From positions 1 to 64,000 of the forward strand of contig CASEER010000008.1 of assembly GCA_949287085.1 (NCBI GenBank): a stretch of DNA of 64,000 nt, given 5' to 3'. Below are positions 40,032 to 52,624 of the stretch, one piece after another. A model generated the notes under the pieces. That model made no database searches and was not told the DNA's origin. It was given only the letters and a program-made list of their open reading frames with translations. The first letter of the stretch is position 1. The number at the start of each line of letters is the position of its first letter. A program made the translations under genes and the position numbers. The DNA is from an uncultured Coriobacteriaceae bacterium (GTDB taxonomy: Bacteria > Actinomycetota > Coriobacteriia > Coriobacteriales > Coriobacteriaceae).

Positions 40032-40205
40032 CGTTTTGGGCGGCCGCTCCGGCGGACCCGCCGTTTTCTTGCTATCTGCGCGCCGTATCCGCGCACGCGT
40101 TTGCCCCGCGCCTGGGCGCTGCGAACCGCCGGCGCCCGCGCCTTGGCGTTGCAGCTCTGGCACATCGCACTATTCATTGAACCGAGGAGGTTTGAACTCG
40201 TCCTT

Positions 40206-41582
40206 ATGGGCATAGCAATTTCTATCGTCGCAACCCTGCTTCTGACGCTGCTTAACGGCTATTTCTCGATGTCCGAGATGGCGCTCACCACCGCCAAGCG
40301 CGCCACGCTCGAGCACGACGCCGAGGAGGGTGACAAACGCGCCGCCCGCGCGCTCGATCTGGCAACGGATTCCACGGACTTTTTGGCCACCATCCAGGTT
40401 GCCATTACGCTCGTGGGCTTCTTCTCGGCTACCGTGTCGTCCAACACACTGTCGGAGCCGCTCACCGCGTGGGTTGAGTCCTTTGGCATCGCGCCGCTTT
40501 CGGCCGCGGCTCCCATTGCTTCGCCCATCATCATCACGCTCATCGTGTCGTACCTCTCCATCGTGGTGGGCGAGCTCGTGCCCAAGCGCATTGGCCTCTC
40601 CGATGCCGAGGGCATGGCCAAATCGGTCGCGGGGCCCATCAGCACGTTCCGCAAGCTCGCCAAGCCGCTCGTGTGGCTCACGCAGGCGAGCGCCAACGGC
40701 CTCAGCGCCATTCTGGGCATTAAGAGCGCCGACGACCGCCAAAACGTTTCCGAAGAAGAGATCAAGTACATGGTCTCCGAGCAGGACACCCTGCTTGATG
40801 AGGAAAAGCGCATGATCCACGAGATCTTTGACCTGGGCGACGCCGTGGCGCGCGAGGTCATGGTGCCGCGCGTGGACGTGCAGATGGCCGAGGACACCAA
40901 CACCGTGGACGAGGTCATGGAGCTCATGCGCCGCACCGGCTTTTCGCGCGTGCCCGTGTTCCGCGAGGACGCCGACAACGTGGTGGGCATCGCGCACATC
41001 AAGGACCTGGTGGGCATCGCGCTCAGCGGCAACGGCTCCGAGCCCGTGGGCGCGCACCTGCGCGACGTGACCTTTGTGCCCGACACCAAGGACATCCTGC
41101 CGCTTCTTTCTGAGATGCAGACCGCGCATGACCAGATTGTGGTCGTGGTGGACGAGTACGGCGGCACGGCCGGCATCATAACCATCGAGGACATTGTTGA
41201 AGAGATCGTGGGCGAGATCGAGGACGAGTTTGACCCCGACAACAAGTACCTCACGCGGCTCAGCCGGCGTGAGTGGCTCGTGGACGGCCGCTTTAGCTGC
41301 GACGATGCCGAGGAGCTCGGTTGGCCCATCGAGGAGAGCGACGAGTACGAGACCATTGCCGGCTGGATCTTGGACATCTGCGACGGCGTGCCGGATATTG
41401 GTGAGGTTTTTGAGGTGGACGGCTACCGCTTCAAGGTGCAGTCCATGCGCGGCCGCCGCATCTCGCTCATCCGCGTGATTGCACCCGAGGAGCCCGCGCC
41501 CGAGGCCAAAGCCTCAACCGAGGACTCTACCAGCGACGACGTCAAGGAACCGCAGGAGGCGGAGGAGAGCGCCAGCGCGTAG
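40206..41582 (+). CDS. CNNM/CorC-type transporter-associated protein (HlyC/CorC family)
   Basis: 458 aa. CNNM (DUF21) membrane domain residues ~1-190 (LNGYFSMSEMALTTAKRATL, SDAEGMAKSV), then a CBS pair (REVMVPRVDVQMAEDTNT, GFSRVPVFREDADNVVGIAH, QIVVVVDEYGGTAGIITIED), then a CorC_HlyC domain (LVDGRFSCDDAEELGWPIEE) and an acidic tail. Relatives take part in Mg or Co efflux or tolerance. ATG 40206 is the only in-frame start; GAGGAGG is 15 bases upstream, unusually far. With the locus at 47906 it is one of two CBS-containing, probably Mg-related genes here. Confidence 0.93.
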   Translation: MGIAISIVATLLLTLLNGYFSMSEMALTTAKRATLEHDAEEGDKRAARALDLATDSTDFLATIQVAITLVGFFSATVSSNTLSEPLTAWVESFGIAPLSAAAPIASPIIITLIVSYLSIVVGELVPKRIGLSDAEGMAKSVAGPISTFRKLAKPLVWLTQASANGLSAILGIKSADDRQNVSEEEIKYMVSEQDTLLDEEKRMIHEIFDLGDAVAREVMVPRVDVQMAEDTNTVDEVMELMRRTGFSRVPVFREDADNVVGIAHIKDLVGIALSGNGSEPVGAHLRDVTFVPDTKDILPLLSEMQTAHDQIVVVVDEYGGTAGIITIEDIVEEIVGEIEDEFDPDNKYLTRLSRREWLVDGRFSCDDAEELGWPIEESDEYETIAGWILDICDGVPDIGEVFEVDGYRFKVQSMRGRRISLIRVIAPEEPAPEAKASTEDSTSDDVKEPQEAEESASA

Positions 41583-41702
41583 CATGAAAATCTCCTGGCT
41601 GATTTTATCGTTCGCCTGGGATATGCCCCGCGCGGTTGCGTTACGATGGCAGGGAGCATTTCCCTGCCGCGCGCAGCGCCTGCGACTGAAGATCGGAGAG
41701 CT

Positions 41703-42356
41703 ATGGCGACCTTGTTTACCATTCTTAAGATTACCGTTGACGACACCAAGATGCGCGCCCGGGTGCTGGTAAACCCCGGTATGCCGCTTATGACCTCGGA
41801 AGATATTGAGGCCACGGCGCGCGTGTACTACCTGGCCCCGGCCATTGCCCAGCATGCGTGCTTTGGCGATGCGGGCGAGAAGTTCCAGGATTGCATGGGA
41901 AACACCGAGATTGCGCACCTGCTGGAGCACCTTACGGTCGAGATTATGAACGAGACGGGTCTGGCGGGCGCGATTTCGTGCGGACGCACGCGTGCAGTCG
42001 CGGATGATCCGCGTGTCTTTGAGATCGAGCTCTCGTGCCCGGACGACGCACTGACCATCGGCGCCTTGTCCTCGGCAACGTTCATGATGGACTGGGCGTT
42101 CTTGCATCCCGATGTGGCGGCGCCCGACTTTGCCGGTACCGTTGAGGGCATGCGCCAGCTGGTGCTGAGCTTGCGGGGCGAGGCCCCGGAGGACGCCGCG
42201 GCCGAGGCTTCATCTGATGCTGAGGATGCGCCGGAGGCTGCAGAGGCGCCGGCGGCAGACGAGCAGGCTGCCGAAGCGCCGGCACCTGAAGATGCGCCGT
42301 ATGATGCCGCCGATGGCGCAGGCGAGGCCCCGGAGGCCGCAACACCCGAGGCGTAA
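41703..42356 (+). CDS. Protein resembling a stand-alone cyanophycin synthetase N-terminal domain
   Basis: 217 aa. Residues 1-~145 are the conserved part: ATLFTILKITVDDTKMRARV, LAPAIAQHACFGDAGEKFQD, TEIAHLLEHLTVEIMNETG, then ISCGRTRAVADDPRVFEIEL. In CphA the N domain has the same order: a His/Cys segment, (G)H-hEH-hE-Q-h-G, and SFGRTR. The last ~70 residues are an acidic Ala/Glu/Pro tail without homologous look. Paralog of the partial gene at 1-282, about 41 kb away. ATG 41703 follows CGGAGAGCT. Function unknown; amide- or polymer-binding is a guess from the resemblance. Confidence 0.8.
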   Translation: MATLFTILKITVDDTKMRARVLVNPGMPLMTSEDIEATARVYYLAPAIAQHACFGDAGEKFQDCMGNTEIAHLLEHLTVEIMNETGLAGAISCGRTRAVADDPRVFEIELSCPDDALTIGALSSATFMMDWAFLHPDVAAPDFAGTVEGMRQLVLSLRGEAPEDAAAEASSDAEDAPEAAEAPAADEQAAEAPAPEDAPYDAADGAGEAPEAATPEA

Positions 42357-42453
42357 CGTTTGCGGATGCGGCGGAGCGCGGCTGCGTTCTGCGGGTATAA
42401 TAGGCGAACATGAAGTCACCGTGTGAACGGATTCAATAGAAGGGAATCACGTT

Positions 42454-42837
42454 ATGGGTAAGGCCTTCAGCTTCATTGCCGGTGCCACGATTGGTGCCGC
42501 TGCCGGCACCATCATCGGCATTCTCGTTGCTCCGCGTTCTGGTGCCGAAACCCGCGCCATGGCCGCCGATATGGCCAACGATGCCTGGGATAGCGCGCGC
42601 GACATGTACGAGCAGGGCACCGAGCAGGCCCGCGCCGCCATGAACGATTTTGGTCCCATGGTCGATGCCAAGACCGATGAGCTCCGCGCCAAGGTTGACC
42701 TGGCCCGCGAGCGCATGGACCAGCTGCGCGAGACCCTGAACGACGCCATTGCCGGCGGCACCGTAACGCCCGCCATGGACGTTGAGGTTGAGGTCGCCCC
42801 CGGCGTCGAGGCTGACGAGGCTCCTGCCGAGGCGTAA
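42454..42837 (+). CDS. YtxH-domain small membrane-anchored protein
   Basis: 127 aa. One N-terminal membrane segment with the YtxH signature (FIAGATIGAAAGTIIGILVA then PRSGAETR), followed by an amphipathic helical stretch and an acidic Val/Glu/Ala tail. YtxH proteins are general-stress or envelope proteins of unclear role. A TATAAT (42396-42401) is a good -10, but the -35 is poor. The stop overlaps the next start by one base (TAATG). Confidence 0.88.
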   Translation: MGKAFSFIAGATIGAAAGTIIGILVAPRSGAETRAMAADMANDAWDSARDMYEQGTEQARAAMNDFGPMVDAKTDELRAKVDLARERMDQLRETLNDAIAGGTVTPAMDVEVEVAPGVEADEAPAEA

Positions 42838-43640
42838 TGCGCACCAAAGATTTTCAGGGCATCAAGATCTACCGGATTCCGCCCGAGGCCAAGCGCACCC
42901 GTAAAGACGGCACGCCGCGCAGTCCCAAGCGCTTGGGCAAGATTCACTTTCCGGTGTTTACCGCAAACGGCCAGCAGGTCGTTGGTTTTATGGTGTCGCC
43001 GCCCGATGTGGCCGGCATGATCAAGCAGCCCGACCGCTTTGTGGCGCGCGACGCCATCCGCGTGTACGAAGGCGTGGTGGCCGTAGATGACCGCAAGGAT
43101 TCCTATGATGCCGCCGCAGCCAAGCGCCTGGGTATTGACTTAGACGCCTGCATCATCTGGACGGGCATGGATGCGGTAACCACCTCGGGCACCAAGCTGG
43201 GCTACTGTTCGGACGCAGCGTTCGACGGCAAGACGGGGGCCGTTACCAGCTTTACCCTCACGGGCGGGGCTACCGCAGCGGCGCTGCTGGGTACGGTCGA
43301 GATGCCCGCGTCGTATCTCAAGGCCTATCGCGACGGTGCCATGATCGTGGACGATGCCGCGGCGTCGCTCGAGCTTTCGGGCGGCGTGGCAGCTAAGGCG
43401 GGCGAGGTTACGGCCAAGGCGAGCGTCAAGGTCAAACAGGGCGCCAAGGTCCTGGATGAGAAGGGCTCCGTTGCGGTCGAAAAAGGCTCGCGCGCGCTAG
43501 GCCGCCAACTGGGCAAAACGCGCGGCATGTTTTCGGCCTTTAAGGACGAGTTTAAGAAAGCGTCGGCGCCAAGCAGCGCGCACGGCACGTCGAGCAAACG
43601 ATCGGGGGGCTCGGCCGGCACGTCAAAGCGTTCTTCGTAG
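42837..43640 (+). CDS. PRC-barrel-like protein
   Basis: 267 aa. Two barrel-like segments: GKIHFPVFTANGQQVVGFMV and GTKLGYCSDAAFDGKTGAVT, each with the 'G..vG.....d..TG.v' pattern of PRC-barrel domains. A Lys/Ala/Ser-rich C-terminal third (AGEVTAKASVKVKQGAKVLD, later SSKRSGGSAGTSKRSS) looks disordered and basic. Translationally coupled to the YtxH gene. It may be an envelope-associated adaptor; function not known. Confidence 0.78.
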   Translation: MRTKDFQGIKIYRIPPEAKRTRKDGTPRSPKRLGKIHFPVFTANGQQVVGFMVSPPDVAGMIKQPDRFVARDAIRVYEGVVAVDDRKDSYDAAAAKRLGIDLDACIIWTGMDAVTTSGTKLGYCSDAAFDGKTGAVTSFTLTGGATAAALLGTVEMPASYLKAYRDGAMIVDDAAASLELSGGVAAKAGEVTAKASVKVKQGAKVLDEKGSVAVEKGSRALGRQLGKTRGMFSAFKDEFKKASAPSSAHGTSSKRSGGSAGTSKRSS

Positions 43641-43682
43641 CGTCGGCGGCGGGTTTGATCTGCGCCATAGGGGAGGACACCA

Positions 43683-45137
43683 TTGCTTAACCACACCACC
43701 TCCTACCCACCAAAGCGTCCGCACCCGCGGCGCAACCAAAAAACCACGGGTTACCAACTGCCCCGCGGCAGGGCGCGTGCGGCGCGACGGCCGGGGGCAA
43801 CCTATCTCAATCATTCACAAGGATTTGGCAGCGCTGGCCGGCGCGGATACGGCGTTAACCGCGCGCCGCGCTTGACGCTGCGGCAGTCGGGCGGTCGGCG
43901 CAACAACGCGCGGCGCTCATATGCCATTGTTATTGTGGGCTGCGCGCTCCTGTTTTTTGTGGCGAGCGTGATTTGGTACCTAAACCGCGGCGTAACCATT
44001 ACGCTCAACGGCGAAGAAGCGAGCATTCACATCAACGGCACCGTTGCGCAGCTGATTGAAAACGAGGGCCTCGACGAGCAGTATGACGCGGGCGACCTGC
44101 TGGCGGTTGACGACAGCGTGCTGGAGCGCGGCGGTGGCGACCGCTATAGCGTGCAGGTCAATGGCAAAAAAATTGCGATGGACGATTTATCCAACGTGCA
44201 GCTGAGCGGCGGCGAAAAGGTTAAAATCGCCGATGGCGCCGACAAATACGAGAAGCACGACGTCAAGGCAACCAAGATTGAGCCTACCATTACCGTCGAC
44301 GGTACGGGTGCCATTGGCTATGTAAAAACCTGGGGCGTTCCGGGTCGTTCAGAAGTGTGGACGGGCAAGCAGTCGGGCATTGTGAAGGACCGCGGTGTGG
44401 TGCAAAAGGTGCAAAACTGCGAGGTCGTATACCGTTCGGTGACGCCCGACAAGGGCAACTACGTGGCGCTTACCTTTGACGAGGGCCCAAGTGAGTACAC
44501 GCAGAAGATTCTTGACGTGCTAAACGAAAAGGGCGTCAAGGCGACGTTCTTCTTGCAGGGCAAGGCGGTGGAAGAAAACGTGGCGGCGGCCAAAGCCATT
44601 GCCGACGCTGGCCACGAGCTGGGGTCGAACGCCTACACCGATACCAACCTCACCAAGCTTTCGGACGACGACCTGCGCTCGCAGCTGACCAGTGGGTTTG
44701 ACGCCATCAAAGATGCGACGGGCACCTCAACGTGTTTGCTGCGCGCGCCGTACGCGGCGTTTTCGGCCAAGAATTGGGCAGAGGGCATGGACCTGGTAAG
44801 CGCCGTGGTGTCGTGGAATCTTGACTCGGGTGACTGGCTGCTGCCGGGGGCGAGCAGCGTGGTGGACACCGTGGTGGGCTCGGTGCGCAACGGCAACATC
44901 GTGCTGCTGACCGACAACGATGCCACCGGTTCGCAAACGGCTGAGGCGCTGGGCGATTTGATTGATCAGTTGCAGGATAAGGGCTACAAACTCGTGACGT
45001 TGAGCGAGCTGGTGGCTACGGATAAGGATTTGGCCAAGGAGCTCGACCTGTCCCAGGTGTCGATGCCGGATGATGCGGTGCTGCCGTCGGTTGCGGCAAA
45101 AGATGCGGCTGGCGACGCCAACACCGCGGCGGAGTAG
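43683..45137 (+). CDS. Degenerate NodB-type polysaccharide deacetylase, predicted inactive
   Basis: 484 aa; TTG start 43683 is fixed by GGGAGG six bases upstream. Basic cytosolic N-terminus, one membrane span (~82-102), an extracytoplasmic domain (RGVTITLNGEEASIHINGTV ...), then a NodB homology fold. The metal and catalytic motifs are changed: TFDDGP is TFDEGP (~264-269), the His-x-x-x-His motif is SNAYTDTN (315-322) with both His lost, and LxHD near the end is LLTDND (~408-413). RAPYAAF and WNLDSGDW remain. The next gene is the same architecture with all motifs intact, so this looks like a pseudoenzyme partner or a carbohydrate-binding derivative. Confidence 0.88.
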   Translation: MLNHTTSYPPKRPHPRRNQKTTGYQLPRGRARAARRPGATYLNHSQGFGSAGRRGYGVNRAPRLTLRQSGGRRNNARRSYAIVIVGCALLFFVASVIWYLNRGVTITLNGEEASIHINGTVAQLIENEGLDEQYDAGDLLAVDDSVLERGGGDRYSVQVNGKKIAMDDLSNVQLSGGEKVKIADGADKYEKHDVKATKIEPTITVDGTGAIGYVKTWGVPGRSEVWTGKQSGIVKDRGVVQKVQNCEVVYRSVTPDKGNYVALTFDEGPSEYTQKILDVLNEKGVKATFFLQGKAVEENVAAAKAIADAGHELGSNAYTDTNLTKLSDDDLRSQLTSGFDAIKDATGTSTCLLRAPYAAFSAKNWAEGMDLVSAVVSWNLDSGDWLLPGASSVVDTVVGSVRNGNIVLLTDNDATGSQTAEALGDLIDQLQDKGYKLVTLSELVATDKDLAKELDLSQVSMPDDAVLPSVAAKDAAGDANTAAE

Positions 45138-45350
45138 CTCGCGCGGCGGCAGCTGCCTGGGTGCGGCATTTGCCCGGCGCGAGCTTGCAGCTGGCTTGGC
45201 GCGGCGTTTGCTCGGCGCGAACGTGCGGTTAGCGGCGCATGATGGTGGGCTTGATGAGGAGCGCGAGGGAATGTTGCCTACGGGTTAATGATCGTGATTA
45301 ACGCTTGCTGGTGCTTCCCTTAAACAATAGTTAAGGTTGGGATGAGTATC

Positions 45351-45378
45351 TTGCGCGCACTGTCCGCCACGATACACT
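45351..45378 (+). promoter_or_regulatory. Promoter of the intact deacetylase gene
   Basis: TTGCGC (45351-45356), 16 bases, TACACT (45373-45378). Just upstream an inverted repeat CTTAAACAATAGTTAAG (about 45319-45335) could be an operator. Confidence 0.5.
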
Positions 45379-45495
45379 GGTGGCGGCAAATCGAGCGCGC
45401 TAGGTACGCGCAGACAGACGCAGGATCGGCGTCGACGGAAGGGGCATTTGCAGCACGGCGCGGGGGCGCTGCGCTGCTTGAGGACTGGCGGCATC

Positions 45496-47499
45496 ATGAC
45501 CAACACGAAACACGACCAGACGGGGTCGACGGAACCAAACAACGGGGCAAACGCGTCGCAGGCGACCGACGCAGCTGCGCAGCAGGGTACTGGTAAAGCT
45601 GCGAGCTCGGCGCACGTGGCGGCAGATAGCGCACGCCAGCAGGCGGCGAGCGCTGCGTGGCAGCAGGCGCTGGCCCGGGCGGCAGGTGCCGTGCGCGCAC
45701 AGGGGTCAGCGGCGGCGCAGGCATCGGAAGAGACAGCCGAGGCGAAGCAGGCGCAGGTGCCAGAGGAAGCCGAGGCGCACCGAGTGCGGGCGTCAGAAGA
45801 GGCAACCGACACGCAGCGGGCGCACCACACGACGGAACAACGAGCGGCACGTGCTGCGCAGCATCCGGAGGAGGGCGCCCAGCGGGCACAGGCTCCGCAC
45901 ATGCGCCAGCAGGCTCCACGTGGCACCCAGCGCCAGGTTCCCCACATGCGTCGGCAGAAGGCCGCACATGACGGGCCGCATCAGACCGCTCATCAACGTC
46001 AGCAGGCTCCCCATGCGGCGCATCCGCAGAGTGCAGGAGCAACGCATCCGCAGGGTGCCGGCGCACCACATACCCAGAACCGGCGCGGTGCACGTCCACA
46101 CGGTTCGGGCGCCGCGCCGCATGCCACGGGCAACGCGGGTACTCCTCATGTCGCGGGTCACCCGGGCGCGCCGCACACGGGGTCGCCGCGACCCAATACG
46201 GTGCACCCTCAAACCAACCCGCATCGTGCACAACCCACGCGCCCTGCGACGCTCGGCTACGTTACGGCAACCGACGGCCATGGTCACCGTCCCGGTTACG
46301 GCGGAGCCCGTCCCCTCGCTGCAGCAGCGGCGGCTCTTGCGTGCATCGGGCTTGTGGTGCTTGCGGGCTGCTGGTTCTTTATGTGGCGCGACGTTACGAT
46401 TACGGTCAACGGCGAGCCGGTGACGGCCAAGGTCAGCGCGCCGCTGAGCGAGGTGCTCGACGGCAACGACCAGTTTGGCGCAAAGCCGGGGCGGTTGCTG
46501 TCGGTAACGGGCGAGGTGCTTTCTAAGGACGGCGGCAACGCGTGCACGGTAAGCCGTGGCGAGCAGGAGCTCTCGGCCAACGAAATCAGCCAAGCGCGCG
46601 TGCAAGATGGCGACGAGTTCAGCGTGACGGACGGCACCGACAAGGAGGAGCCTTCGACCGAGGAAACGGTTGAGGTCGCGCCCAAGATCGACAAAAAAGA
46701 GGGCGGCGCTATTCAGTACGTGTCCCAGTGGGGCAAGTCGGGCAAGAAGCGCGTGAAGAAGGGCAAGACCTCGGGCAAAACCGTTGACATCAAGACGCTC
46801 AAAAAAGCGCAGGATATGGTGGTATCGTCGGCCAACATGAATCCGAGTGGCGGCAAGTACGTTGCGCTCACCTTTGACGACGGCCCCAGCTCGTACACGC
46901 CCAAGATCCTGAAGATCCTGAAGGAGAAGGGCGCCAAGGCAACGTTCTTTAACCTGGGCGAGCAGGCCAAGAGCAACCAAAGCGGCAGCAAGGCGATTGT
47001 TGATGCCGGCATGGAGCTTGCAAGCCACACCATGGCGCACCGCAATCTGCCAAAGTGCGATCGCGACACGCTGCGATCCGAGATTACCAAGGCGTTTGAT
47101 GCGCTCAATCAGGCGGCGGACACCAAGGTGCAGATGATCCGTGCTCCGTATGGCGCGTTTACCTCGGCCGAGTGGGCGCGTGCGGGTGACTTGATTTCGT
47201 GCAACGTGCTGTGGAACATCGACACGCTCGACTGGGAGCGTCCGGGCGCGACGGCCATTACGTCGGCGGTGCTCAACCATGCCTATAACGGCGCGATCAT
47301 TCTGATGCACGACGGTGGCGGCAACCGCGAGCAGGACGTTGAAGCGCTGCCGGACATCATCGATGGCCTGCACGAGAAAGGCTACGAGCTGGTGACCGTG
47401 AGCGAGCTCATGAAGCTCGACGGCAGCATTCCCGATGACGTGATCAACGGCACCGTGAGCATGCCCGACGATGCCGTGTTGCCCAAGGTAGACAACTAG
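45496..47499 (+). CDS. Membrane-anchored polysaccharide deacetylase with a long His/Gln-rich N-terminus
   Basis: 667 aa. Residues 1-~270 are a low-complexity Ala/Gln/His/Pro-rich region presumed cytosolic (repeats such as PHMRQQAP and HPQSAGATHPQGAGAPH), then a membrane span (~275-297), an extracytoplasmic domain (RDVTITVNGEPVTAKV ...) and a NodB domain with every motif: TFDDGP (D461, D462), ASHTMAHRNL (His pair ~510/514), IRAPYGAF, WNIDTLDW and ILMHDGGG. Likely deacetylates peptidoglycan or another surface glycan, which can give lysozyme resistance. ATG 45496 is chosen; its ribosome site (GAGGA) is rather distant. Tandem paralog of the preceding gene. Confidence 0.92.
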   Translation: MTNTKHDQTGSTEPNNGANASQATDAAAQQGTGKAASSAHVAADSARQQAASAAWQQALARAAGAVRAQGSAAAQASEETAEAKQAQVPEEAEAHRVRASEEATDTQRAHHTTEQRAARAAQHPEEGAQRAQAPHMRQQAPRGTQRQVPHMRRQKAAHDGPHQTAHQRQQAPHAAHPQSAGATHPQGAGAPHTQNRRGARPHGSGAAPHATGNAGTPHVAGHPGAPHTGSPRPNTVHPQTNPHRAQPTRPATLGYVTATDGHGHRPGYGGARPLAAAAAALACIGLVVLAGCWFFMWRDVTITVNGEPVTAKVSAPLSEVLDGNDQFGAKPGRLLSVTGEVLSKDGGNACTVSRGEQELSANEISQARVQDGDEFSVTDGTDKEEPSTEETVEVAPKIDKKEGGAIQYVSQWGKSGKKRVKKGKTSGKTVDIKTLKKAQDMVVSSANMNPSGGKYVALTFDDGPSSYTPKILKILKEKGAKATFFNLGEQAKSNQSGSKAIVDAGMELASHTMAHRNLPKCDRDTLRSEITKAFDALNQAADTKVQMIRAPYGAFTSAEWARAGDLISCNVLWNIDTLDWERPGATAITSAVLNHAYNGAIILMHDGGGNREQDVEALPDIIDGLHEKGYELVTVSELMKLDGSIPDDVINGTVSMPDDAVLPKVDN

Positions 47500-47530
47500 C
47501 CGCGGCGCTTGCCCCCCTGCGGCCCGAGTT

Positions 47531-47606
47531 TGCGCCGCGGGGCTTGCACCGTTCTGCAGCGCGCTGCTTGCGCCGCGGGGCTTGCACCGTACCGCAGCGC
47601 GCTGCT
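47531..47606. repeat. 38-bp tandem repeat, two copies
   Basis: 47531-47568 and 47569-47606 differ at only two positions (TGCGCCGCGGGGCTTGCACC... start); a decayed third start follows. Confidence 0.85.
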
Positions 47607-47905
47607 TGTGCCGCGACGCACGCCAAAGTGGCAACCCCTCAAAAGCGCGTCCAACTTGGGCGCGAAGACGCGCGGTGCGCCTTGTCGTTTCGCACGGGGG
47701 CACAACCTGCTATAGTAGGAACGTTTGATATGGGTCACGAGAAAGGTATCAGGTGAAATCGAAACCTCGACCTCACAGTCGCTGACCCCTGCGGGTGCTC
47801 TAAGCGCGCGCATGGGGTAGCACCACGCGCACCGCTTTGCGGCTGTGCTGCGCACGCATAGCTTCGGCGCCGGGTCTGCTCGGCCGCCGGGAATGAAGGA
47901 GCACC
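47607..47905. other. Upstream region and possible leader of the Mg-transport operon
   Basis: TATAGT at 47711-47716 is a good -10 (the -35 is weak), giving a leader of ~185 bases before the ATG at 47906. The leader can form a stem GGTGCT ... AGCACC (about 47795-47825) among others. It does not show the conserved M-box core, so any Mg-sensing role would be through a different structure. Confidence 0.4.
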
Positions 47906-49819
47906 ATGAACTATCTCTCCGAGATGCTCAAGCTGCCCGTTTTGGATGTAAACGGAGCCAAGCTGGGCGTCGTGAACGACCTGGGTATCGCCACGGGCGA
48001 GGTCTTTCCCCACGTTACATCGCTTGCGTTCCAGGGACCGGGCAAAACGCCGTTTATGATTAGCTGGCGCAAGTACGTGGACCATGTTGACGAGACGGGC
48101 GTGCACCTGAAGGCGCGCGACACCGACGTGCGCTTCTCGTACCTGCAGCCCGACGAGGTGCTGCTCGCGCGCGATATTCTTAACAAGCAGATCGTGGACA
48201 CGCAGGGCCTCAAGGTCGTGCGCGTAAACGATCTCAAGCTTTCGAGCACGGGCGATAACCAGCTGCGCCTGATCGGTGCCGAGGTGGGCATGCGCGGCCT
48301 GCTGCGCGCGGTGCATCCGGCGCTCGAGCACGTGGTGGCCCGCATTGCCCGCGCGGTGGGCAAGCCGCTCGAGGAGCACATTATCGCGTGGTCGTACATG
48401 GACCTGCTCGAGCGCAGCACGCAAACCATCAAGCTCTCCGTTTCGCACAAGACTCTTGACGAGCTGCACCCGGCCGACATCGCCGATATCATCGAGCAGC
48501 TCGATCCGCGCTTGCGCGGCCAGGTGTTCGCGCAGCTCGACACGGCGCAGGCGGCCGAGGCCATTAGCGAGTTCGACGATGACGAGCTGGTAACCGAGAT
48601 GCTCGAGGGCATGAGCGACCGCGATGCCTCGTCAATGCTTGCCCTCATGGATCCGGACGACGCGGCCGATCTTATCGAGGAGCTTGACTACGAGAAGGCC
48701 GAAAAGCTCCTGCGCCTCATGGGCGTCAAGGAGGAGCGCGCGATTCGCAACCTGCTGGGCTACGAGGAGCACACCGCGGGCCGCATCATGACGAGCGAGT
48801 TCGTGGCGCTGCCGGCAACGGACACCGCAGCCGATGCCATCGAGGCCATCCGCAAACTCGATGAGGACTTTGAGAGCATCTACTACGTCTACACGCTCGA
48901 CCCGGCGGGCGCGCTCACGGGCGTGCTCTCGCTCCGCACGCTTATCGTGGCCGACCACGACGCGCGGCTCTCGGACCTTGCCTACCGCGACGTGGTGTGG
49001 GTCACGCCCGACGTGGACCAGGAGGACGTGGCGGACGAGATGACCAAGTACGACCTGGTTGCCGTGCCCGTGTGCGACGAAAACCGCCACGTGCTGGGCA
49101 TCGTGACCGTCGACGACGCACTAGACGTCATTGCCGAGGAGCACGAGGAGGACCTGCAGATTGCCGGTGTGGGCGCGGGCGAGGGCTCCTCGGGCGAGGC
49201 ACCCCATGTGCTTTCGTGGTTCGCACGCCGCCAGTACTGGGTGCTTGTGTGGGCCATTGCCTCGGGCATCATCGCGGCGGCGCTCGACGCGGCGGGCGGT
49301 GCAAGCGCGTACTTTGTTTACCCCATGTGCGCGATGCCCGTGGTGCTGCTGGCGGCGGACCGCGTGGTGTCGTTTGTGCGCAACTACTTTTTGGAATACG
49401 ACGCACCGGAGGATGAAGGCAAGCCCTACCTGGGGTTCTTCTTGCAGATGACAGGGCTGGGCGTCATCTTGGCGGCGCTCATCTACCTGTGCGGGCAGCT
49501 CGCGCTCGGCGCGGCGTATCCGGACGACATCATTGCCATGGCAAGCGATTCGACCCTGTTGCCGCTGGTGGACGGGGCGCGGCAGGTGCCTGCCGCGGTG
49601 CTGCAGGTGCAGGCGCTCTCGGCAAGCTTTTCGTGCGCCGCCGGCGTGGTGCTGCTGTGCTGCGTGGCGGCGGTTGGCTACCTTAAGCTGCTCTTTTGGC
49701 GTGACGAGCACGACCTTAACACCTCGGGCACGGCGCTCGGCGCTTCTGCGGTGCTTGGCGCGTGCGCGATCTATTCGGTGGCGGCCACCCTCTTTGTGCT
49801 GCTTGCGGTCTGCTGGTAG
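47906..49819 (+). CDS. PRC-barrel / MgtE_N / CBS protein with a divergent membrane domain
   Basis: 637 aa. N-terminal PRC-barrel segment (VLDVNGAKLGVVNDLGIATG, residues ~12-75), MgtE N-domain (LHPADIADIIEQLDPRLRGQ ... SDRDASSMLALMDPDDAADL, ~190-280), paired CBS (~285-415: AGRIMTSEFVALPATDTAAD, GVLSLRTLIVADHDARLSDL, VVWVTPDVDQEDVADEMTKY, GIVTVDDALDVIAEE), then ~190 residues with five membrane spans. The spans lack the conserved pore motif of MgtE channels as I remember it, so this may be an Mg-sensing regulator rather than the channel. ATG 47906 follows AAGGAGCACC. Seven bases separate it from the NRAMP-type gene. Confidence 0.88.
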   Translation: MNYLSEMLKLPVLDVNGAKLGVVNDLGIATGEVFPHVTSLAFQGPGKTPFMISWRKYVDHVDETGVHLKARDTDVRFSYLQPDEVLLARDILNKQIVDTQGLKVVRVNDLKLSSTGDNQLRLIGAEVGMRGLLRAVHPALEHVVARIARAVGKPLEEHIIAWSYMDLLERSTQTIKLSVSHKTLDELHPADIADIIEQLDPRLRGQVFAQLDTAQAAEAISEFDDDELVTEMLEGMSDRDASSMLALMDPDDAADLIEELDYEKAEKLLRLMGVKEERAIRNLLGYEEHTAGRIMTSEFVALPATDTAADAIEAIRKLDEDFESIYYVYTLDPAGALTGVLSLRTLIVADHDARLSDLAYRDVVWVTPDVDQEDVADEMTKYDLVAVPVCDENRHVLGIVTVDDALDVIAEEHEEDLQIAGVGAGEGSSGEAPHVLSWFARRQYWVLVWAIASGIIAAALDAAGGASAYFVYPMCAMPVVLLAADRVVSFVRNYFLEYDAPEDEGKPYLGFFLQMTGLGVILAALIYLCGQLALGAAYPDDIIAMASDSTLLPLVDGARQVPAAVLQVQALSASFSCAAGVVLLCCVAAVGYLKLLFWRDEHDLNTSGTALGASAVLGACAIYSVAATLFVLLAVCW

Positions 49820-49825
49820 GCGCGC

Positions 49826-51070
49826 ATGCAGGGGAGAGATGCAGGCAGCAAGCTCACGCTCGGCGCGGTACTGGGCGCCATGGGGCCGGGGCTCTTGGCG
49901 GCGCTTGCGGGCAACGATGCAGGCGGCATTGCCACCTACTCGAGCGCGGGCGCGTCGTTTGGCTACGGCACGTTATGGATTCTGCCCGTTATGGCCGTGC
50001 TGCTTATCGTGGTGCAGGAGACTGCGGCGCGCTGCGGATGCGTGACGGGCAAGGGCTTTGCGTCGCTCATTCGCGAGAAGTTCGGCGTGCGGCTCTCGGC
50101 GCTCGCCATGGCCGCGCTGCTCGTGGCCAACACGGCGGTGACCATCTCGGAGTTCGCAGGCATTGCAAGCGGTCTTGCGCTCTTTGGGGTACCCACCACC
50201 ATTTCTGTGCCGCTGGTGGCGCTCGTTATCTGGCTCATTACCATGAGCGGGAGCTTTGCGCGCATCGAGAAGATTCTGCTGCTGGTGAGCTGCGTGTTTC
50301 TTACGTACGTGGTGGCGGCGTTTATGGTGGGGCCCGATTGGCTCGCGGTGGCGCGCGCCACGGTGACGCCACAGCTCGTGAGCGACCCGGATTACGTATC
50401 GCTGCTCGTGGCAACCATCGGCACCACGATTGCGCCGTGGATGATCTTTCTCGCCCAGAACAACGTGGTCGATAAGAACGTGCGCGAAGACGGCATTGCG
50501 CTGCAGCGCGTGGATACGGTTTCGGGCTCGGTGATTGCCTGCGCGATCGCATGGTTCATCATCGTGACGACGGCGACGGTGCTGCATCCCGCGGGCATTG
50601 AGGTGGGCGACGCGGCGGACGCGGCGCTGGCGCTCGAGCCCATCGCGGGGCAGTGGTCGACCATCCTCTTTGGCGCAGGGCTCGTGGCAGCGAGCTTTTT
50701 GGCCGCGTGCGTGCTGCCGGGCGTGACGTCGAGCGCAATCTGCGAGGCGTTTGGCTGGGAGCGCGGCGCCGACCGCACGTGGGACGAGGCGCCGGCGTAC
50801 CGCGGCATTATTACGGGCATCATCATGCTCTCGGCGTTGCTGGTGATTTTGCCCGGCGTGGACCTGTTTGACATCATGATGAGCGCGCAGGTTATCAACG
50901 GCGTGCTGCTGCCTATTCTGCTCGTGTTTCTGGTGCTCATTGCGCGCGACGGCCGCATCATGGGCGCCTACCGGAACGGCCGCGTGTGGAACATCCTCAC
51001 GGTGGCGACTATCGTGCTGATTACCGTGCTGACGGTGGTGATGCTCGTGCTCCAGGCGCTCGGATTTTAA
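49826..51070 (+). CDS. NRAMP-family transporter of the Mg-type (NRMT)
   Basis: 414 aa, about 11 spans. NRAMP fold: GAMGPGLLAALAGNDAGGIA then TYSSAGASFGYGT. In Mn/Fe NRAMPs the metal site is DPGN in span 1 and a Met-containing MPH motif in span 6; here span 1 has NDAGG (N30, D31) and span 6 has TIAPWM (A203 where Met is usual). Replacement of that Met is the mark of NRAMP-related magnesium transporters, described from Eggerthella and clostridia. Coupled to the MgtE-like gene upstream, supporting Mg uptake. The start at 49826 has no strong ribosome site, so translation is probably coupled. Confidence 0.9.
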   Translation: MQGRDAGSKLTLGAVLGAMGPGLLAALAGNDAGGIATYSSAGASFGYGTLWILPVMAVLLIVVQETAARCGCVTGKGFASLIREKFGVRLSALAMAALLVANTAVTISEFAGIASGLALFGVPTTISVPLVALVIWLITMSGSFARIEKILLLVSCVFLTYVVAAFMVGPDWLAVARATVTPQLVSDPDYVSLLVATIGTTIAPWMIFLAQNNVVDKNVREDGIALQRVDTVSGSVIACAIAWFIIVTTATVLHPAGIEVGDAADAALALEPIAGQWSTILFGAGLVAASFLAACVLPGVTSSAICEAFGWERGADRTWDEAPAYRGIITGIIMLSALLVILPGVDLFDIMMSAQVINGVLLPILLVFLVLIARDGRIMGAYRNGRVWNILTVATIVLITVLTVVMLVLQALGF

Positions 51071-51430: not shown

Positions 51431-52624
51431 CTAAAAGGGCTTTCCATAGAGCGCTTCGTGAAGTTTTGAGCGCCGGCGCAGGAAGGCCGGCGTTCGCTTT
51501 GCCGGCTTTACGTCAAGTTTTTTCGCAAGTGCGCTAACAATCGTATCGTACAGATCAAGATTGCTGAGCTGTTCGTAAGTTAGTTCGATAACGGTAAATC
51601 CCATGCTTTCCAGCGCGGGCTTTCTTCCGGTTGCAATAAAGAAGTTCTGCTTATCCGCATGGAATGCCTGGCCGTGCACTTCAAGATCTACCAGGGCGTC
51701 GGCCCATAGCTGGTCCGCAATGCAATAGTCTTGATGAGCAAGGTCCGAAGCCTCAGGAGAGAAATCGATACGCCGGTTAAGAAACGGCGCGCTCCATCCC
51801 TCCCCACCCGATGTGACGGGAAGACAGAGCTGCATAGCGGCGCGCGTTTCGAGCGGTGAGCCCGATCCGTTTAGCACGTGCGGAGCCGCTGCGCGCATGG
51901 TTCTTCCTCCCGGGGCTTCGTGCAGCCCGTTTGCAAATCGGACAAGGTCTGCGCTCGTTAGAAGCGGTGGTCGCTTCCACAGCCCAGCGGGCCTGCCAAA
52001 ACGGTCAAACGACAATTCCCAGGGAAGCGATTTGCCATGCGAATCGGTAAAGCGCACGGGTACTCCGCGAGTGTCATAATAGGCGCGCACATGGTCTTTC
52101 TGGGCTTGTTGTGATTCGGAAGTGATAACCCCCTGCGATACCAGCTCGTTAAGCGTCGCCGCCGAGCGCGCGGTCTCACTGAACTGGGAGTATAAACCAG
52201 CAAATTCAAACATAACGAGCATAAGCTCAAAGCGGTTGGCCCCTTTTGCCAGGGAGGCGATTGTTGCCTGGGGAGAGAGCACCGCAAGCCCACCGCCAAG
52301 GTCAACCATATCGTCGTCATGCAACCAAGCGGGCATCCGGTGCGGCGCGAGCAGGGGAGATGACCGGCGGCTCTGCGTATTGCCAACGAACACGTGAATC
52401 GGCGTTGCAACACCTTTGAGGTCGCTGGCTAAACGGTCACCGATAATGCCTTCTGCAGGACGGGCATTGCTGCGTAAAGAGCGAGCATGCATGATGGCTC
52501 GCGTCTCTTGACCGTTGCGCTCCGGCAGCCATGATGGTGGAAGCTGGGCATTCCGCACAATGGGAGCCGTCCGCCAATAATCGAGCGAGGATTGCCCGCA
52601 GATGATGGCCTCATAACATTTCAT
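51431..52624 (-). CDS. Orphan VSR/DUF559-like nuclease-type protein, second copy
   Basis: 397 aa, same layout as the protein at 21886-23037. The central part (DMVDLGGGLAVLSPQATIAS, ANRFELMLVMFEFAGLYSQF) is followed by NGSGSPLETRAAMQLCLPVT, GWSAPFLNRRIDFSPEA, then ADALVDLEVHGQAFHADKQN and MGFTVIELTYEQLSN, matching the E ... D-E-H ... closing-strand order of the fold. Similarity to the first copy is in architecture and motifs, not overall identity. GC content and codon use look lower than in the neighbours, suggesting transfer. ATG 52624 has no clear ribosome site. No modification enzyme or antitoxin is adjacent. Confidence 0.75.
   Translation of the reverse strand: MKCYEAIICGQSSLDYWRTAPIVRNAQLPPSWLPERNGQETRAIMHARSLRSNARPAEGIIGDRLASDLKGVATPIHVFVGNTQSRRSSPLLAPHRMPAWLHDDDMVDLGGGLAVLSPQATIASLAKGANRFELMLVMFEFAGLYSQFSETARSAATLNELVSQGVITSESQQAQKDHVRAYYDTRGVPVRFTDSHGKSLPWELSFDRFGRPAGLWKRPPLLTSADLVRFANGLHEAPGGRTMRAAAPHVLNGSGSPLETRAAMQLCLPVTSGGEGWSAPFLNRRIDFSPEASDLAHQDYCIADQLWADALVDLEVHGQAFHADKQNFFIATGRKPALESMGFTVIELTYEQLSNLDLYDTIVSALAKKLDVKPAKRTPAFLRRRSKLHEALYGKPF

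Follow-up and report, generated by a model that had tools for sequence, protein, structure and literature searches.

The CE4 (NodB) polysaccharide deacetylases carry five sequence motifs, MT1 to MT5, which supply the catalytic base, the metal ligands and the general acid (PMC4505593). Pseudoenzymes of this family are already established (PMC10967932, PMC5855634, PMC6115787), and the nearest worked example for the protein treated here is the pair BA0330/BA0331 of Bacillus anthracis, surface-anchored CE4/NodB proteins that had no detectable deacetylase activity, bound purified peptidoglycan and, even when the catalytic Asp was removed, complemented the shape defects in full, a non-enzymatic role in wall integrity (PMC4505593). 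From the same organism, BA0150 has no metal (PMC5855634, PMC6115787) and BA3943 is titled a pseudoenzyme in PDB entry 7BKF, and ECU11_0510 of Encephalitozoon cuniculi (2VYO) is a probable dead CE4 protein without the metal His residues (PMC5855634, PMC10967932). Here we analysed a stretch of 64,000 nucleotides (the window) from contig CASEER010000008.1 of an uncultured Coriobacteriaceae bacterium, in which two NodB genes stand in tandem on the forward strand, a degenerate copy, ORF1, followed by an intact copy, ORF2. We found that the degenerate copy has been fixed throughout the family, together with what we read as repeated loss of its active twin, and it is this combination for a CE4 pseudoenzyme that is new. 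Targeted searches that paired Collinsella with peptidoglycan deacetylase, Coriobacteriia with polysaccharide deacetylase, or polysaccharide deacetylase with catalytic inactivity and pseudoenzymes gave no paper in the literature covered, which lacks most subscription papers.

ORF1 (43683 to 45137, 484 aa from a TTG start) and ORF2 (45448 to 47499) share 37% identity across 469 aa and match PF01522 (Polysacc_deac_1) with 97.9 and 114.2 bits, respectively, against a cut-off of 23.1; they are the sole matches to this family in the assembly from which the window comes (76% complete). The original prediction of a dead copy beside an active one was confirmed in both coordinates and motifs. In ORF1, the second Asp of MT1 is replaced by Glu267 (TFDEGP, 44472 to 44489), the two histidines of MT2 by Asn316 and Asp320 (GSNAYTDTNL, 44622 to 44651, with GSNAYTD standing against HTMAH in ORF2), and the catalytic His of MT5 by Thr410 (LLTD, 44904 to 44915, against LMHD), so that Glu, Asn and Asp occupy the positions of the metal triad and the general acid is missing. 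The presumed base Asp266, Arg354 of MT3 (RAPYAAF, 44742 to 44762), Asp384 of MT4 (DSGDW, 44823 to 44837) and Asp411 are retained. ORF2 keeps TFDDGP (46870 to 46887), HTMAH (47026 to 47040), RAPYGAF, DTLDW and LMHD (MT5 His at 47308 to 47310) within a catalytic stretch spanning 46870 to 47310; all seven catalytic positions are intact, as expected of a peptidoglycan GlcNAc deacetylase, the substrate being predicted from sequence. By descent, as judged from its PF01522 match and from a NodB fold match with a best Z of 22.1, ORF1 is a CE4/NodB protein, and the NodB fold combined with a conserved loss of the metal and acid residues places it among the CE4 pseudoenzymes, from which we infer that it is inactive.

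The same architecture had also been predicted for the two proteins, and this holds for the domain order, since both run from a cytoplasmic tail through one membrane helix (read from the sequence) and an ectodomain to a C-terminal NodB domain, but not for the tails, which differ in length, composition and conservation, being short and conserved in ORF1 and long and of low complexity in ORF2. The ORF1 tail covers residues 1 to 79 (43683 to 43919), the predicted helix residues 80 to 100 (43920 to 43982), and the N-terminal ectodomain with its linker lies at 43983 to 44450, opening with a DUF348-like stretch that stays below threshold (E 0.39, 10.9 bits, cut-off 24). Column conservation and the tail were examined in the 44 of 64 ORF1 orthologue rows (described below) that were aligned, among which the tail follows the pattern TTSY..QLP..RRPGAxYLNHSQGFG; by eye, this pattern was not seen in the first 60 to 140 residues of the ORF2 orthologues and outgroup proteins. 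The same alignment supports the TTG start of ORF1 at the level of sequence, because a codon is present at this position in 43 of the 44 orthologues and is a start codon in 40 of those 43 (TTG in 33, GTG in 4, ATG in 3). For ORF2, we consider the ATG at 45496 (667 aa) a likelier start than the TTG at 45448 (683 aa).

AlphaFold models reached a mean predicted local distance difference test (pLDDT) score of 77.7 for ORF1 and 75.9 for ORF2, and the MT3-MT4 stretch was poorly modelled in both, perhaps due to alignments of only 8 and 7 sequences, respectively. Across its NodB domain, the ORF1 model can be superposed on CE4 structures, with best Z 22.1 for 5LGC, followed by 2C1G (20.4), 4M1B (20.2) and 7BKF (19.6); these structural matches (VIA) cover model residues 106 to 367 only and do not settle the fold of the N-terminal ectodomain. 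Compared with BA0330/BA0331, which keep the Asp-His-His metal site, are lipoproteins, carry an Fn3 domain and have MT5 before MT1 (PMC4505593), ORF1 follows the standard motif order, spans the membrane, has a cytoplasmic tail that is conserved and no longer possesses the metal site; ORF1 does not belong to that subgroup, and the non-enzymatic wall role is proposed for it by analogy. BA0150 (4M1B) and BA3943 (7BKF) resemble ORF1 in having the NodB fold with altered motifs, a likeness drawn at the level of fold and motifs, but they come from B. anthracis, and for ORF1 the assignments to PdaB (TIGR02764, 149.9 bits against an NCBIfam equivalog cut-off of 237.4) and YlxY (TIGR02873, 109.7 bits against 391.5) were both rejected. 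ECU11_0510 differs in being eukaryotic and in lacking the base Asp and the MT3 Arg (PMC5855634, PMC10967932), both of which are kept in ORF1. The peptidoglycan GlcNAc deacetylases of the SpPgdA type (2C1G) share with ORF1 extra N-terminal domains and a NodB domain that aligns at Z 20.4; ORF2 has the catalytic residues of this kind, whereas ORF1 lacks the three catalytic His, and both proteins score far under the NCBIfam cut-off of the PgdA equivalog.

The search for orthologues covered 65 Coriobacteriaceae genomes. An ORF1 orthologue was present in 64 and an ORF2 orthologue in 34, with both genes in 33 genomes, ORF1 alone in 31 and ORF2 alone in one (G008), where no relative of the PRC protein encoded upstream of ORF1 was found either; ORF1 may be missing from this assembly or may have been deleted along with the block. 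The window genome is placed in the same genus as G002, a genome matched to Enorma massiliensis. Across the order, the ORF2 domain had a match in 155 of 197 genomes (48 of the 197 being family members), and 40 loci outside the family, mostly best matches, gave an outgroup of 40 sequences from 37 genomes. Of the 40 outgroup sequences, 38 are catalytically intact, and all seven catalytic positions are intact in 34 of the 34 ORF2 orthologues, while neither MT2 His occurs in any of the 64 ORF1 orthologues; because family rows were labelled degenerate or intact by the presence of both MT2 His, the MT2 part of these two family counts is set by the label. The MT5 His, which lies outside this criterion, tracks the label throughout, being present in 34/34 intact rows and absent from 64/64 degenerate ones (Thr in 61, Ser in 3). 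The MT3 Arg and MT4 Asp persist in all 64 ORF1 orthologues, MT4 always reading DSGD or NSGD with its SG fixed across the clade, and the base Asp in 57.

Before tree building, 5 of 143 ORF hits, each shorter than 300 aa, were left out (a piece of the split Enorma massiliensis ORF1, a contig-end piece of ORF2 in G038 and three pieces from G194). In a tree of 121 of the 138 rows, from which 17 of the 22 rows of one close (core) group were omitted, 47 degenerate rows form one clade (support 100 in the Shimodaira-Hasegawa-like approximate likelihood ratio test) and 34 intact rows another (99), and the two together split from the 40 outgroup rows with support 94, which is under the threshold for a well-supported branch; a quick tree of all 138 rows likewise gave one clade for the 64 degenerate rows (100), one for the 34 intact rows (100) and an outgroup split of 91. 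The labels are thereby tested, because each forms one clade on both trees and the MT5 His agrees in every row. Within the fetched stretch, most family loci share the order CNNM-CBS, cyanophycin-synthetase-N-like, YtxH, PRC, ORF1, (ORF2), MgtE_N-CBS and Nramp, and in 11 outgroup loci a lone NodB gene lies downstream of YtxH and PRC. These clades and this synteny suggest that the locus once held one NodB gene, which was copied before the diversification of the family, and that the upstream of the two copies became inactive at that time; a single duplication in the ancestor of the Coriobacteriaceae is the most likely history that the sequences allow. The original prediction had set loss in this strain only as the mark of simple decay; since the three His are absent from one clade of 64 orthologues in 65 genomes, the degenerate copy is conserved and presumably functional.

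Almost half of the genomes with the degenerate copy, 31 of 64, have no ORF2 orthologue, and among them is G063, a genome matched to Collinsella sp. An2. In whole-genome scans for PF01522, the one deacetylase family searched for, the degenerate copy was the single match in 29 of these 31 genomes, 27 of the 29 assemblies being at least 90% complete and including a genome in one contig (G010); the other two, G023 and G035, each hold one distant NodB protein elsewhere. In all 31 genomes, ORF1 and the MgtE gene behind it share a contig, with a median of 328 nt between them (range 207 to 1951), and a tblastn search with the ORF2 domain of up to 2.2 kb downstream of ORF1 in these genomes gave no match at E up to 1, leaving no detected remnant of ORF2. 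Mapping the presence of ORF2 on the ORF1 tree (46 of the 64 degenerate rows used) required seven changes, six of them forced by well-supported branches. Parsimony alone cannot separate gain from loss, and we read all seven as losses because the duplication is older. Two observations on the space between ORF1 and MgtE may be added. In G037 (L109), a gene of about 400 aa occupies the place of ORF2 and by eye resembles a minus-strand ORF of the window at 51431 to 52624, which has no Pfam match; in G009 (L081) and G015 (L087), about 1.7 kb separates ORF1 from MgtE, compared with about 330 nt in most other core genomes, with no trace of ORF2.

Selection was measured as the ratio of nonsynonymous to synonymous substitution rates (dN/dS) with our own Nei-Gojobori script over the span from the membrane helix to the end of the NodB domain. 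Within the core group, which makes up 22 of the 31 genomes without ORF2, the ratio of means for ORF1 was 0.070 (231 pairs, highest pair 0.175), and three further pairs without ORF2 gave 0.099, 0.104 and 0.171. In genomes with both genes, ORF1 (0.026 to 0.27, 11 comparisons) and ORF2 (0.015 to 0.31, 12 comparisons) behaved similarly. ORF1 is therefore under purifying selection where the active copy is absent, and it probably does something useful of its own. The two domains differ in their conservation: among the 33 paired genomes, mean NodB identity is 0.584 for ORF1 against 0.695 for ORF2, with ORF1 higher in 10 of 528 pairs, whereas for the N-terminal ectodomain it is 0.560 against 0.448, with ORF1 higher in 462 of 496 comparable pairs (the 32 pairs with G038 were not comparable).

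At the eight positions of the pocket, D-E-N-D-R-D-T-D is found in 30 of the 31 genomes without ORF2, the remaining one having Asn at the fourth, while the strict D-E-N-D of the first four occurs in 25 of the 33 paired-genome orthologues. When the core group was reduced to one member and joined with all nine others, giving 10 representatives, 7 of 8 pocket columns did not vary, compared with 61 of all 184 NodB columns (p 0.002, hypergeometric test); for the four changed positions alone, 3 of 4 were invariant among these representatives, which is not significant (p 0.11). On these grounds, the ORF1 pocket is probably in use.

Taking these data together, we propose that ORF1 may be a membrane-anchored, non-catalytic protein that binds wall glycan or serves as a scaffold and whose cytoplasmic tail is conserved, a reading to which we give about an even chance. 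The deacetylase gene at this locus was most likely duplicated in the Coriobacteriaceae ancestor, and the upstream copy then lost the metal site and the general acid; it still has the NodB fold, its own ectodomain and, in the groove, the MT3 Arg and the MT4 Asp. The groove might bind a wall glycan, peptidoglycan or some other, and leave its acetyl groups in place, glycan binding being the reading that we favour by analogy with BA0330/BA0331, and the tail might hold an intracellular partner, so that ORF1 would tether or position envelope machinery and stabilise the wall. Several points weigh against this proposal. The weaker NodB conservation in ORF1 suggests a groove under weaker constraint than that of the enzyme, which fits release from catalysis; the base Asp has also gone in 7 of the 33 paired-genome orthologues; and the tail could be conserved for membrane insertion and not for a partner. 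The analogy with BA0330/BA0331, which have the Fn3 domain and keep the metal site, is functional only, and wall binding and any phenotype of ORF1 are predictions.

A related and in our view doubtful possibility is that ORF1 is a re-tooled receptor, in which an oxygen-ligand pocket would bind a fragment of the wall, possibly together with Mg, Mn or Ca, and the tail would signal to an intracellular partner. It shares its pocket with the idea, to be held just as tentatively, that the site has been rebuilt, with Glu267, Asn316 and Asp320 coordinating a hard cation (Mg, Mn, Ca) through oxygen and Thr410 in place of the acid; such a pocket might, at a similarly low likelihood, give a cation-dependent sensor, a glycan lectin or a different reaction. 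The uniformity of the eight positions in genomes without ORF2 speaks for it, as does a locus flanked by divalent-metal transporter families (CNNM/CorC, MgtE_N-CBS and Nramp). However, the active copy also conserves half of the eight and the four changed ones fall short of significance, the strict D-E-N-D is lost in 8 of the 33 paired orthologues, neighbouring transporters are no evidence of metal in ORF1, and the models are poorly resolved around MT3-MT4. The argument for a rebuilt site is no more than suggestive. Retention of Asp266, Arg354 and Asp384 might even leave ORF1 a deacetylase, acting through the Glu/Asn/Asp site or by a metal-free route like the NodB-fold allantoinase PuuE, which functions without metal (PMC10967932). 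This we consider very improbable, because none of the 64 orthologues retains either metal His or the acid His, PuuE keeps its MT5 His (PMC10967932) and CE4 proteins of known structure that lack the metal His have been described as inactive (PMC5855634).

The suggestion, made in the original prediction, that ORF1 regulates or heterodimerises with ORF2 draws on the arrangement of the genes, which in most genomes with both stand in tandem on the same strand, with a median gap of 139 nt (28 measured), although in G006 the two copies lie on different contigs. As a general function, an obligate partnership with ORF2 is ruled out by the 31 genomes without it, since 29 of them have no other PF01522 match and purifying selection persists there. 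The absence of ORF2 takes seven changes on the ORF1 tree and comes with no visible relaxation of selection on ORF1, and the ORF1 pocket is more uniform where ORF2 is absent; in the 33 paired genomes ORF1 may act as a partner, and as an account of ORF1 we hold this to be improbable. The chance that ORF1 is merely a pseudogene on its way out is negligible. It does show weaker conservation of the NodB domain than ORF2, and one orthologue, that of G002 (L015), reads in two frames, but 63 of 64 orthologues have one long open frame, the clade is deep, dN/dS lies well below 1 and the start codon is conserved; simple decay was ruled out by the survey of 64 orthologues and by dN/dS. As to individual frames, the G002 orthologue (L073/L015) is split near the membrane helix between two frames that overlap, owing either to a faulty assembly or to a real frameshift, and in G051 (L124) the orthologue shares one open frame with the apparent end of the upstream PRC gene, where an ambiguous residue makes a scaffold artefact likely.

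At the syntenic locus in another family, in the genus g45, the single NodB genes of G120 (L161) and G188 (L159) have lost both MT2 His (ATKTDxY) and keep TFDDGP and the MT5 His, which, judged on the residues, is a second, independent loss. A search of this genus found the loss in four of five homologues (G120, G188, G214 and G215, with L178 to L181 also concerned) and not in G126, synteny being shown for G120 and G188. A second NodB protein with TFDDGP, HTxDH or HSxDH, and LMHDGG occurs in G126, G188 and G214, and also in G216; G120 and G215 have second matches too.

Four neighbouring genes, for the YtxH, PRC, PRC-MgtE_N-CBS and Nramp proteins, are likewise on the forward strand. Directly upstream of ORF1, across a gap of 42 nt, lies a gene for a PRC-barrel domain protein (42837 to 43640; PF05239, 21.5 bits against a cut-off of 21.2), which overlaps by 1 base a gene for a YtxH-like membrane protein (42454 to 42837; PF12732, 61 bits); both are conserved beside ORF1. 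A short gene at 41646 to 42356, also conserved at the locus, has as its sole match the N-terminal domain of cyanophycin synthetase, barely above the Pfam cut-off. The downstream boundary is set by a gene for a membrane protein with PRC, MgtE_N and CBS domains (47906 to 49819), followed by an Nramp metal transporter gene (49826 to 51070; PF01566, 289 bits). Over 40101 to 51070, the YtxH-PRC-NodB block is bracketed by the CNNM/CorC, MgtE_N-CBS and Nramp families, which keep the same order in most fetched family loci. Promoter and terminator scans of 42300 to 48000 yielded no more than was obtained in shuffled sequence.

A pseudoenzyme is commonly interpreted as the helper of a relative that is still active, and Collinsella is a genus common in the human gut. 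In the family that includes Collinsella, on our reading, the active relative was discarded and the dead one kept about seven times, and this repeated loss of the twin makes a stand-alone role of the dead deacetylase directly testable. A gene annotated as PF01522 or "polysaccharide deacetylase" in these genomes does not necessarily signify a deacetylated wall, the degenerate copy being the sole match in 29 of the 65. Should the receptor idea prove true, ORF1 would be a wall sensor or tether derived from a deacetylase and needed even after the enzyme itself had been discarded.

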